DNA from: Chromohalobacter moromii
GTDB taxonomy: Bacteria > Pseudomonadota > Gammaproteobacteria > Pseudomonadales > Halomonadaceae
Assembly: GCF_023091865.1 (NCBI RefSeq)
Contig: NZ_JAHXDI010000001.1
Span: 1,178,001 to 1,242,000, forward strand
Direction: 5' to 3'
DNA: 64,000 bases
Shown here: in pieces, positions 47,469-53,825 of the stretch
Layout of the letters: every line of letters begins with the position of its first letter
Position numbering within the stretch: the first letter of the stretch is position 1
Position numbers and translations under genes: made by a program
Notes under the pieces: model-generated
What the model was told of the DNA's origin: nothing
The model's input: only the letters and a program-made list of their open reading frames with translations
Database searches by the model: none

Positions 47469-48209
47469 TTACAGTGCGGCATACCAGTGGGCGATCAATA
47501 TGCCCAGGGTGAGCGTCAATGAGAAGCTCAGCATGGTGCCCAGCAAAACGTACTCGGTGAGCTTGCGGTCGCGATCCTCACGCAAATCGCCGAAACGCAA
47601 TACCGATTTGGCGGCCAGTAAGAAGCCAATGGGCACGAGTTGATCGGCCAGCACGAAGGTTAGCACTAGAAACCGCTCGAGCATGCCGATCCGCGCGCCC
47701 GCATCGGCGAGCGTACCGCTGTTGTCCACGCCATGGCTCCAGCGCCGCATGATCAGGGCGATGAGAATCGAGAACGGCCGCATGACGATCAAATACGCCA
47801 AGGTCACCAGCAGAGTTCGAGGGTGCAATAGCCATGCGACGGCGTGGCCGAGCCAAGCGCCGTCACCGACCAGCCATGCCCAGATGATAACGAGCACGCT
47901 GACATGTAGGGCTTGGTCGACGACGAAGTAACGCACGTGCTCGGCTGGGGCGTGGCTCTTGAAGGCGTCGATGACGAGATGCGTGACGGCGATGAAAGCC
48001 GCCCCCAGCAAAGCGGTGGCAAAGGATTGAGAACTTATCAATACCAGCCAGGCCAATGCGCCATGCACGCCAGCATGCAAGTAAAGGGCTCGGGAACGCT
48101 GGCGACGCGCATTCTTGTCGCGAACCCAGGCAGCGCTCTGAAGTAGAAAGTCGCCGGCCAGGTGCGCGATCAGCAAAAGCAGTAGTGTGGTCAAGGGAGA
48201 ACCGATCAT
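47469..48209 (-). CDS. DUF3307 polytopic membrane protein, coupled to satD
   Basis: 246 residues, about 6-7 hydrophobic helices. Conserved-looking polar positions sit inside or beside helices: AHLAGDFLLQ, LHAGVHGALAW, VTHLVIDAFKSH and DQALHVSVLV. These H-x3-D, H-x3-H and H-x3-D spacings look like a membrane-embedded metal site, similar in flavour to YdjM-type putative membrane hydrolases. The start overlaps the satD stop by 4 bp, so the two are made together. Family function is not established; the enzymatic idea is inference. Confidence 0.82.
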   Translation of the reverse strand: MIGSPLTTLLLLLIAHLAGDFLLQSAAWVRDKNARRQRSRALYLHAGVHGALAWLVLISSQSFATALLGAAFIAVTHLVIDAFKSHAPAEHVRYFVVDQALHVSVLVIIWAWLVGDGAWLGHAVAWLLHPRTLLVTLAYLIVMRPFSILIALIMRRWSHGVDNSGTLADAGARIGMLERFLVLTFVLADQLVPIGFLLAAKSVLRFGDLREDRDRKLTEYVLLGTMLSFSLTLTLGILIAHWYAAL

Positions 48210-48856
48210 CGTGGCGCCTCCATGATGGCGGCGATGCGCTGACCGACATGCGCTAGATACTCCTCGATCAGTGGCCAGCGTGCGGCGTGCAAGCGTTGAT
48301 GAATCGTCGACTGCGCGCGCCCGAGGCGTTCTGCCAAGGCTTTCTGCGTTTCGGCATGCTGCAGTTGCCAGTACGTTACTTCGGCGGCGTTATGGGTCCA
48401 ACCCTGGATGGTGGCATCAGCGAAACGCGTCAACAGAGCCAGGGTGTCATCAGGCGCGGGCAATGACAGCGCAAAGCGCGTATCGCCCTCGCTCAAGGCA
48501 TCCAGAGCCTGGCCGGAGCGCACGTAGACCTCGCCATTGGCCGAGGCGAAACGTCCCGTTTCGGGTAAATGTCCCGGGCCGATGGCCACTGCGATGCGGG
48601 CGTCCCAGGTCTCGCGCCGAGAAGGGGAGTGCCGTATCAACGCGGCACGGGTCAGCACGGCAGCCGTCATGGCTTGCGCGGGTGAGCGCAAGGCGACTTG
48701 GAAGCCATCGCCACGGTAGCGATCCACGCATGCCCCGTATTGCGATGCTAAGAGCCCAAGCGCGCTTTCGAGCGCTTGATCGAGCCGCGTGTGATCATCG
48801 ATACGGCGTGACCCGACGATGTCGCCGGTCAGTACGCTGAGTGGGATTTCATCCAT
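48206..48856 (-). CDS. SatD-family protein: cyclase-like domain plus C-terminal HTH
   Basis: 216 residues. The N-terminal ~150 residues follow the class III nucleotidyl cyclase pattern: a beta-1 Asp in LTGDIVGSRR, a hairpin-type motif DRYRGDGFQVAL followed by an Ala-rich helix, then RIAVAIGPGHLPE and a GEVYVRSGQALDAL segment. The last ~60 residues contain a helix-turn-helix (TQKALAERLGRAQSTIHQRL). Such proteins are annotated SatD and often sit with DUF3307. The fold match is by eye. Function unknown; a ligand- or nucleotide-responsive autoregulator is plausible. A dyad lies just before its ATG and a LexA box about 110 bp upstream. Confidence 0.8.
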   Translation of the reverse strand: MDEIPLSVLTGDIVGSRRIDDHTRLDQALESALGLLASQYGACVDRYRGDGFQVALRSPAQAMTAAVLTRAALIRHSPSRRETWDARIAVAIGPGHLPETGRFASANGEVYVRSGQALDALSEGDTRFALSLPAPDDTLALLTRFADATIQGWTHNAAEVTYWQLQHAETQKALAERLGRAQSTIHQRLHAARWPLIEEYLAHVGQRIAAIMEAPR

Positions 48857-48860
48857 ATTT

Positions 48861-48880
48861 TATCGCCTTTTAATACGATA
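48861..48880. promoter_or_regulatory. dyad TATCG-N10-CGATA immediately before satD
   Basis: An inverted pair TATCG (48861-48865) and CGATA (48876-48880) centred 15 bp upstream of the satD ATG. It is a possible autoregulatory site for the HTH tail of SatD. Short and in AT-rich DNA, so chance is possible. Confidence 0.3.
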
Positions 48881-48967
48881 TTTGGCAATAATAGTAGAAT
48901 AATTATATAAGTCTAGCTAGTCGTAAAATGAATCGATTATTGAACTAAGCTAGAACGATATCCTGTA

Positions 48968-48987
48968 TACTGTAATTATATACAGTA
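48968..48987. promoter_or_regulatory. LexA (SOS) box
   Basis: TACTGTAATTATATACAGTA: CTGT-N8-ACAG with the full 20-bp consensus matched except for two central bases. It lies in the AT-rich gap between satD (-, start 112 bp away) and the 3' end of the GGDEF gene. On the + strand it directly follows a promoter-like TTGAAC-N18-TGTATA. Confidence 0.8.
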
Positions 48988-49053
48988 TTTTGGGCATGCC
49001 AACCCCGCAAGGGGCCACCGTGTCGGTGGAGCGAGGTTGTAATCAGGGGGCTG

Positions 49054-52644: not shown

Positions 52645-53535
52645 TCAGTGCAAATCCTCAAATTCCAGCGGCGTCCTGTAACCAAGGCTGCTGTGGAGCC
52701 GTTGGGTGTTATAAAAGCCTTCAATATAGCGATTTATATGTTTCCGTAATTGCCGCATCGTCACGAAACTGGTGGCGTGCAGCAATTCTCCCTTCAACGT
52801 CTTGAAGAAGGACTCAACCTCGGCGTTGTCCGTGCATTGGCCCGGGCGGTTCATGCTGTGACGTACCCGATGCTGTTTTAGCAATCGTTGCGTCTTTTGG
52901 GCCCGGTATTCGATACCTCGATCCGTGTGAAGCAATAATCCAGCAGCGGGACGCCGCAATTCGAAAGCCTCTCGCAGGGTCGCTCTGGAGAAATCCGCAC
53001 TCAGTCTCTCACCCAATCGCCAGCTCAGCACTCGACGCGAGAACAGATCCAGCACCACCGCCAGGAAGACGTATTTCGAACCCAGCTTGATGTAGGTGAC
53101 GTCGCTGCTCCACTGCTGATCGACAGCGTCCGGTGCGGAGGCTTCCAAACGGTGATTGGGCAGCGCTTTCAGCTCATGACGGCGCCTCGCCAAGCGCCGG
53201 TAGACACGGGAAACACGCGCCCTCATTCCCCATTGCTGCATCACCTTCGCAACCCGGTTTTCACCTACCGTGACGCCCTCACGGCGCAACGCTTGATAAA
53301 CCCGTGGACTGCCATATCGTCCCCCGCTGTCATCGTAGATCTTGCGGATCTGGGACAACAGCACAGCCTGCTCGGACATTCGTTTGCTTGGCTTTCGGTT
53401 GACCCAGGCGTAGTAGCCGGAGCGTGAAATGCTCAGGTGCTGGCAAAGCGACTTTACGCTGTATCGTTGCCGGTGTTTCCAGACGAACCGGAACGCTTCC
53501 GTCGTTCCTCGGCCTGAAAACGTTGAAACTTTTTT
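52645..53535 (-). CDS. IS3-family transposase OrfB (DDE catalytic part)
   Basis: Catalytic half of the transposase, read in the -1 frame from the slippery site. The first codons give KVSTFSGRGTTEAF, then LCQHLSISRSGYYAWVNRKP; an internal ATG at 53379 starts MSEQAVLLSQIRKIYDD. The rve-type integrase core has Asp in WSSDVTYIKL, Asp in LLHTDRGIEY and Glu in DNAEVESFFKTLKGEL, a complete D-D-35-E set. It ends NTQRLHSSLGYRTPLEFE. Made as an OrfAB fusion after -1 frameshifting; no premature stop, so probably active. Confidence 0.92.
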   Translation of the reverse strand, partial: KKVSTFSGRGTTEAFRFVWKHRQRYSVKSLCQHLSISRSGYYAWVNRKPSKRMSEQAVLLSQIRKIYDDSGGRYGSPRVYQALRREGVTVGENRVAKVMQQWGMRARVSRVYRRLARRRHELKALPNHRLEASAPDAVDQQWSSDVTYIKLGSKYVFLAVVLDLFSRRVLSWRLGERLSADFSRATLREAFELRRPAAGLLLHTDRGIEYRAQKTQRLLKQHRVRHSMNRPGQCTDNAEVESFFKTLKGELLHATSFVTMRQLRKHINRYIEGFYNTQRLHSSLGYRTPLEFEDLH

Positions 53536-53825
53536 AGGACATCGTTTTCCTCCTCAAGCTCCGCAATCCGGCGTTTGAGGCGGGTGAGTTCATCCTGCTC
53601 CCTGACCTTTTCCTTGGCCTCGGCAGGCGCTTTCTTGACCCGTTTCATGGCAAATTTTCCCTCTCGGTACTCCTTTCGCCAGCGTGACAGCATGAACGGG
53701 TGAATATCCAGCGCTTCCGCGACCCCTTGGACGCTTCGGTGAGCCTGATGGCTCCACTCGACCGCCTTCACCTTGAACTCAGTGCTGTAACGTTGCGTTT
53801 TCTTCCCCGTGATGATTGCGGGCAT
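53454..53825 (-). CDS. IS3-family transposase OrfA (HTH part)
   Basis: 123 residues: helix-turn-helix (YSTEFKVKAVEWSHQAHR, VAEALDIHPFMLSRWRKEYREG) and a leucine-zipper region (LTRLKRRIAELEEENDVLKKF) for dimerisation and end binding. The slippery heptamer AAAAAAG lies within its LKKF codons. Without frameshifting it ends after a short tail GSSGNTGNDTA. Confidence 0.93.
   Translation of the reverse strand: MPAIITGKKTQRYSTEFKVKAVEWSHQAHRSVQGVAEALDIHPFMLSRWRKEYREGKFAMKRVKKAPAEAKEKVREQDELTRLKRRIAELEEENDVLKKFQRFQAEERRKRSGSSGNTGNDTA
53529..53535 (-). other. -1 programmed frameshift site of the IS
   Basis: The heptamer A-AAA-AAG (minus strand) at the orfA/orfB overlap. Shifting one base back here links OrfA to the frame that encodes the DDE domain, the usual IS3 arrangement. 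Confidence 0.85.

Follow-up and report, generated by a model that had tools for sequence, protein, structure and literature searches.

Two adjoining genes of Chromohalobacter moromii, one coding for a SatD-like protein and the other for a membrane protein with a DUF3307 domain, raise the question of what a protein with a cyclase-like domain and a DNA-binding tail does next to a membrane protein. The pair lies in a stretch of 64,000 nucleotides (contig NZ_JAHXDI010000001.1, positions 1,178,001 to 1,242,000 of the forward strand), hereafter the window, whose own numbering is used below. SatD and its partner are revealed here as a near-obligate two-gene module across bacteria and archaea. The explanation that we favour, its chances as a whole being about evenly balanced, is that SatD is a dedicated autoregulator of this module, with an antitoxin- or guard-like logic. 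Searches of the open-access literature brought up no molecular function that had been tested for PF16264 (SatD) or for PF11750 (DUF3307).

SatD and its partner are linked across genomes and plasmids

The two genes of the window are as follows:
48206..48856, minus strand: satD-like gene, 216 amino acids (aa), palm domain plus C-terminal helix-turn-helix (HTH); open reading frame (ORF) call, profiles and AF2 model
47469..48209, minus strand: DUF3307 membrane partner gene, 246 aa; PF11750 match, adjoins SatD in relatives

The ORF coordinates bear out the 4-bp overlap described in an earlier note on this DNA, and the pairing that it pointed out was found throughout the genus, the family and the phylum. 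In the taxonomic family of the window's Chromohalobacter genome, as represented in the genome collection ("family" in all counts), SatD was present in 64 of 121 genomes, once as a fragment (G086), and DUF3307 in 62, all inside the SatD set, the SatD genomes without a counted DUF3307 being G086 and G075. A partner match on the same strand was detected at 68/68 SatD loci (63 of the family and five others; the G086 fragment, L097, was left out), the partner profile also taking remnants and intact partners being two fewer. One remnant is that of G075, of the same species as locus L037 (C. nigrandesensis) to judge from an identical match, where satD is intact and the partner has lost its middle by an internal deletion (L037:5500-6600); in G064 (G064:C3:79601-81727; also L011) the partner gene is split, its two parts lying about 1.3 kb from each other, probably because of an insertion, and satD is again intact. 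Among the profiles used, A6 includes the window, and A3 includes the window and loci of genomes that were searched again (e.g. G467 and G442).

At the class level, SatD was found in 6/369 genomes and DUF3307 in 11/369; the five DUF3307 genomes without a SatD match comprise three with a divergent SatD adjoining and two with short proteins that lack the C-terminal core of the partner described below. In the phylum, the core was present in 26/398 genomes and SatD in 25/398, with 25 shared, and the genes were adjacent on one strand in 25/25. All 17 plasmid records matching the window DUF3307 hold SatD, including one of Fusobacterium that, at 2.1 Mb, is probably a chromosome. When distant queries were added, 26 of 27 SatD-bearing plasmid records had the partner core beside SatD (for Agrobacterium, one of four records was inspected and the others were judged by match positions). 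Two haloarchaeal plasmids carry SatD and DUF3307 with 4-bp overlaps and both names annotated side by side, and the module is also carried on very small plasmids. The gene pair, conserved in genus, family and phylum, is thus not a chance arrangement and is far wider than the earlier note implied: two families without established function are near-inseparable partners across two domains of life.

SatD joins a palm-type domain to a putative DNA-binding region

The following features were assigned to SatD:
48464..48856, minus strand: palm domain, residues about 1-131; AF2 model and fold matches
48821-48823, minus strand: codon of metal-type aspartate D12; 106/106, one gap
48707-48709, minus strand: codon of metal-type aspartate D50; 107/107
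48278..48394, minus strand: HTH region, residues about 155-193; predicted helices and profile match to a solved HTH

The name SatD does not stand on the protein's own score against PF16264 (11.6 bits, below the curated cut-off of 29) but holds through intermediates. Relatives at loci L059 and L061, which were retrieved by a profile built from the family and other gammaproteobacterial sequences, score 107.6 and 69.7 bits, and because they pass the cut-off the window protein is placed, by sequence comparison, in the SatD superfamily. A Fusobacterium copy reached 53.5 bits to PF16264, yet was marginal to the SatD profile built here (E 0.0022). The closest named records come from Chromohalobacter species, with 84-98% identity.

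The motifs LTGDIVGS, RYRGDGF, IAVAIGPG and GEVYVRSG, from which a class III nucleotidyl cyclase had been read, are all present, and the cyclase-like fold is supported by the AF2 model, a palm whose best fold matches are class III cyclases and GGDEF domains. No match of the window SatD to PF00990 (GGDEF) was obtained at E up to 10; in a viral fold library, the one match at E 0.001 or better was a phage protein named guanylate cyclase domain. Conservation of the TGD and GDG acidic residues is as strict as that reading demands, with no substitution at D12, S16, G49 or D50 in 107 bacterial and archaeal sequences, near-identical relatives included, and one gap each at D12, S16 and G49. D12 and D50 align with aspartates of the class III cyclase Ma1120. 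Class III cyclases also carry a transition-state Asn/Arg signature; reading the SatD sequence revealed no clear counterpart of this pair or of the base-selecting residues. SatD probably binds nucleotide and metal.

The C-terminal HTH proposed in the earlier note is likewise sustained, by predicted helices at residues 155-166, 171-178 and 182-191 of the AF2 model and by a match of the SatD family profile to a solved HTH (E 1.4e-4); Pfam HTH matches to the window SatD were all under their cut-offs.

Palindromes and a LexA-type box precede satD

The region ahead of satD holds the following elements:
48861..48880, no strand: putative SatD operator 1, TATCG-N10-CGATA; palindrome search
48921..48936, no strand: putative SatD operator 2, TCG-N10-CGA; centre 58 bp (2 x 29) from operator 1
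48968..48987, no strand: LexA-type SOS box TACTGTATATAATTACAGTA (minus-strand reading); perfect site, recurs upstream of satD in relatives
48975..49002, minus strand: sigma-70-like promoter TTGGCA-16-TATAAT, with its -10 within the LexA-type box; 11/12 consensus matches

The operator 1 form occurs in 6/10 Chromohalobacter satD leaders, and the 58-bp spacing of two TCG-N10-CGA palindromes, seen in the window, recurs in L003, L004 and L006, the six remaining leaders of the ten showing one of these two palindromes only. Elsewhere in the family, the dyad ATAGC-N8-GCTAT was found in satD leaders at 14/21 and 22/32 loci of two recognition-helix groups. Its perfect extension TATAGC-N8-GCTATA gave seven sites in six of 14 genomes chosen for satD, each just upstream of satD, against one site for the backwards control in the same genomes. 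Other lineages have other arms: AACC-GGTT in Enterobacter, E. coli and L059, TAGCC-GGCTA in Vibrio and ACAACC-GGTTGT in Natronosalvus.

With LexA-type boxes included among the palindromes, and with satD starts in unannotated loci picked by rule, two or more palindromes within 180 bp were counted in 18/37 satD upstream regions, compared to 28/253 controls from the same neighbourhoods (p 3.5e-7). A second set of satD upstream regions gave 11/19, with a control that was not GC-matched. Like-armed pairs 28-29 bp apart, centre to centre, were counted in 19 cases at 16/56 loci, compared to 0.05 on average and at most 2 in 100 shuffles and to a single case in the 253 control regions. Represented among these 16 loci are two archaea, two members of the family, Vibrio, Sphingomonas, and plasmids of E. 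coli and Enterobacter. Over the 121 family genomes, a tandem-palindrome pattern proved too loose, its backwards control matching about as often or more. The idea that the module has transcriptional control of its own is strengthened by the dyad sites and the like-armed pairs, the promoter region having the look of a self-controlled one. SatD very probably autoregulates its operon, which is the only target for which there is evidence here, and the pairs 28-29 bp apart constitute a regulatory signature predicting such a role.

A LexA-type box, as expected of a member of the SOS regulon, lies over the predicted satD promoter: TACTGTATATAATTACAGTA sits 131 bases ahead of satD, and the promoter search returned two such sites in the region, compared to 0.8 expected. 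The C. moromii genome has three perfect TACTGT-N8-ACAGTA sites, one of them before satD; the other two precede operons that we take, by eye from the sequence, to be umuDC, and the sites with one mismatch include those before genes that we presume, also by eye, to be recA and a radical SAM gene. At locus L040 of this genome (C2:265700-269700), a perfect SOS box was noticed just ahead of an 89-aa ORF, followed by a second umuDC-like operon (by eye). A matrix built from four non-satD boxes, with a score above 99% of shuffles required, passed in 10/10 leaders (L010 with a damaged right half) and 21/21 leaders of two family groups, in 6/32 of a third group and in 0/5 of other gammaproteobacteria. 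Because the passes differ in this way by group, SOS control, as far as binding-site matches tell, is mainly a lineage feature, whereas the palindromes near satD are the wider one.

The partner has an optional N-terminal domain and a near-constant core

Two parts were distinguished in the partner:
47871..48185, minus strand: N-terminal DUF3307 domain with His/Asp residues, residues 9-113; PF11750 and family alignment
47472..47717, minus strand: C-terminal membrane core (IGxxER, AKSxxRF, EYxxxGTxxS), residues about 165-246; common to SatD partners

The PF11750 match to residues 9-113 scores 96.3 bits, compared to a cut-off of 23. The His/Asp motifs of this domain, for which a metal site had been suggested, are kept in the family, where all His/Asp positions are invariant in 17/17 aligned members and the motif HxxxDFxxQ is present in 62/63 partners (the exception is a remnant in L009), but not in the wider set of the window plus 43 partners from outside the family, where it is present in 29/44 and absent in 15/44. 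Some partners without it are only 90-150 aa as annotated, and the whole DUF3307 domain is lacking in those of Agrobacterium pAt (90 aa as annotated, beginning inside the core without its first part), Sphingomonas parapaucimobilis (138 aa) and Natronosalvus (149 aa). In contrast, the pattern IGxxER...K...RF...EY...G of the core is retained in nearly all partners, 105-106 of the 107 partner rows keeping G171, G175, E178, K201, R205 and G224 (window numbering); the count takes in gaps and near-identical relatives, and has the window's own partner twice. Because core-only partners without the motif exist while the core persists, the metal-type site appears, from these alignments, to be an optional module. 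Thus, the idea of a metal hydrolase as the heart of the module lost ground, and DUF3307 was rejected as its essential catalytic part.

No Pfam or NCBIfam family scored above cut-off over the core-only partners scanned. The model of the window partner is all helical and of low quality (pLDDT 79.8, pTM 0.57), and its fold search gave no match at E 0.001 or better. Stand-alone DUF3307-domain proteins, with neither core nor SatD, were seen at L060 and L062 (frames of 114-126 aa), and a second, partial DUF3307 copy with an internal stop lies away from the satD locus in one genome (G048:C44:250883-251263).

A proposed mechanism and its alternatives

We infer that the SatD palm would bind metal and a nucleotide, possibly converting the latter, and that the HTH would bind the tandem palindromes, 28-29 bp apart in many lineages, to repress its own operon; in the window, these lie between the promoter and satD, a position suited to repression. 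SatD would have a single conserved target, the membrane protein encoded next to it, of which the constant part is a predicted small transmembrane core. SatD would keep this partner scarce, and perhaps inactive via a nucleotide signal, so that loss or titration of SatD, or a change in nucleotide state, would let the partner act on the membrane. The LexA-type box would, in many genomes of the window's family, add DNA damage as a second release. The partner alone is a candidate for the output of the module.

The antitoxin or guard logic, which we hold tentatively and at rather less than even chances, is favoured because the partner decays without decay of SatD (two events), because very small plasmids carry the module and because essentiality has been reported for satD, an accessory gene, in S. 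pyogenes. There, according to PMC11323703, satD was the sole accessory gene in the top quarter of essentiality, being present in 178/249 genomes, and S. mutans satD is stated to be associated with acid tolerance. Two other sources annotate satD for acid resistance (PMC10326533) and list SatD among proteins changing between lineages (PMC10210942).

Several observations weigh on the other side. The S. pyogenes gene is tied to the window SatD by family name, and partner decay beside an intact SatD amounts to two events. Genome G651 (locus L190) has a 281-aa frame with a partner-like core (E 8.5e-6) and DUF3307-type motifs but no adjoining SatD detected, and an Aerococcus plasmid SatD adjoins a DUF975 membrane protein that does not match the core. 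Regarding the operators, the Chromohalobacter operator 1 form is not unique, with eight sites in its own genome, the palindrome excess is modest compared to low-GC controls (8/40, p 0.015), and 40/56 loci have no 28-29 bp pair by the test used. Finally, the locus in the family looks like that of an ordinary gene, being chromosomal and showing partial synteny, with the amidase gene in 5/12 neighbourhoods and a GGDEF gene, at more than 50% identity, in 5/12, and the defence context of satD loci is patchy.

The alternative that survives best, somewhat unlikely in our judgement, is that SatD acts as a nucleotide-sensing one-component repressor whose target, a transporter or a protein of envelope stress, is harmless and required under stress only, with no toxin involved. 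Palindromes at satD's own promoter, the chromosomal and partly syntenic family locus, an SOS-type box as for stress genes, the metal-type motif of 29/44 partners and the acid tolerance link of S. mutans (as stated in PMC11323703) would all suit such a protein, but the reported essentiality of an accessory satD in the same source, the tiny plasmids carrying the module and the loss of the partner while SatD stays would not.

Closer to the earlier note, a triggered SatD could make a cyclic nucleotide that switches on the membrane protein or is degraded by it. We consider this quite unlikely: the palm fold with both metal-type aspartates invariant and the layout of synthase plus membrane effector, as in cyclic-nucleotide defence systems (PMC12657218), agree with it, but the HTH and palindromes indicate transcriptional control, the essentiality report suits inhibition better than activation and the His/Asp motif is dispensable. 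A palm without catalysis, serving as a scaffold for dimerising the HTH and nothing more, with a nucleotide site that is a relic, is highly improbable, since D12, S16, G49 and D50 are unsubstituted in both bacteria and archaea and relics seldom keep metal ligands, despite the lack of an evident class III Asn/Arg signature at the GEVYVRSG segment by sequence reading.

For SatD as an autoregulator with guard-like logic, a more specific form, unlikely in its entirety, can be put forward. The palm would make or hold a nucleotide that restrains a membrane-disrupting core and sets the grip of SatD on phased operators 28-29 bp apart, and loss of that nucleotide state (by phage attack, DNA damage or metabolic collapse) would free transcription and activity of the partner together. 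The module would then be a transcription-coupled relative of Panoptes, spread across bacteria and archaea.

Comparison with known systems

By analogy, Panoptes (OptS/mCpol plus OptE/2TM-beta) appears to be the closest worked-out logic: in its descriptions (PMC12657230, PMC12657218), the product of a palm enzyme restrains a membrane toxin. Both are two-gene operons of a minimal palm-fold nucleotide enzyme (putative in SatD) and a small membrane protein, and the lethality of losing the enzyme product in Panoptes may be set beside the essentiality reported for satD in S. pyogenes. Unlike Panoptes, SatD has an HTH and promoter palindromes; no soluble nucleotide-binding domain was recognised in its partner, the model of which is of low quality, and the best matches obtained for its palm are class III and GGDEF chains.

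The module resembles type II toxin-antitoxin operons in its putatively DNA-binding first gene, palindromic putative operators, overlapping second gene and plasmid occurrence, but has a palm-fold protein with metal-type aspartates as candidate antitoxin and a multi-pass membrane protein as candidate toxin. With class III cyclases such as Ma1120 and GGDEF diguanylate cyclases, SatD shares the palm fold and two aspartate positions, whereas no clear match to the other catalytic residues was seen by sequence reading and the palm is fused to an HTH. Regarding the PF16264 and PF11750 families themselves, distant relatives with the same gene order exceed both cut-offs, unlike the window SatD, and the partner core is modelled by neither Pfam nor NCBIfam. 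The guard reading, if true, would carry the Panoptes principle of restraint by a small molecule over to a module that is much more widespread. The module also prompts further questions: can a domain with a cyclase fold do the sensing for a transcription factor, is the membrane core a toxin, and what lies behind the reported essentiality of the accessory gene satD in S. pyogenes?

Genomic context and phages

In the window, a HAMP-GGDEF gene lies upstream of satD on the same strand and an amidase gene downstream of the pair. At eight other gammaproteobacterial loci, 126 ORFs were called and 68 scanned (30 of these singly), and defence-island membership was not established for these 68 ORFs. They matched 78 PADLOC models at E 1e-5, each of the 25 models listed being matched by one or two members, and a generic helicase at L138 accounts for 50 of the models. 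A type IV restriction-type gene lies close downstream of the pair at L137 (L137:10285-11571, PADLOC E 3.5e-32), L144 (E 6e-22) and L142 (E 1.4e-7) gave partial MADS-type matches, and L139 one of ZorB/MotB type; PDC-S15 and mad3 were matched somewhere among the scanned ORFs. Of the Pfam families at these loci, the best 25 of 78 listed are, in our reading, mostly housekeeping.

The family alignment retrieved no relative of SatD from IMG/VR, phage records gave no match to the E. coli plasmid SatD or to the window DUF3307, and at the DNA level the E. coli plasmid pair was without a match among the complete genomes of E. coli searched. PHROGs holds a related membrane-protein family of the DUF3307 domain (phrog_2470), and a DUF3307 gene is listed for a jumbo phage in PMC8504454.

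Two further observations concern the surroundings of the module. On a Sphingomonas insulae plasmid (L132), the annotation places satD-DUF3307 immediately next to a Pycsar-type cyclase/effector operon and shows a TIR gene in the vicinity. In the window, two minus-strand ORFs near the module (52645-53825) resemble, by eye, an IS3-type transposase pair, one of them being similar to a protein of L134.
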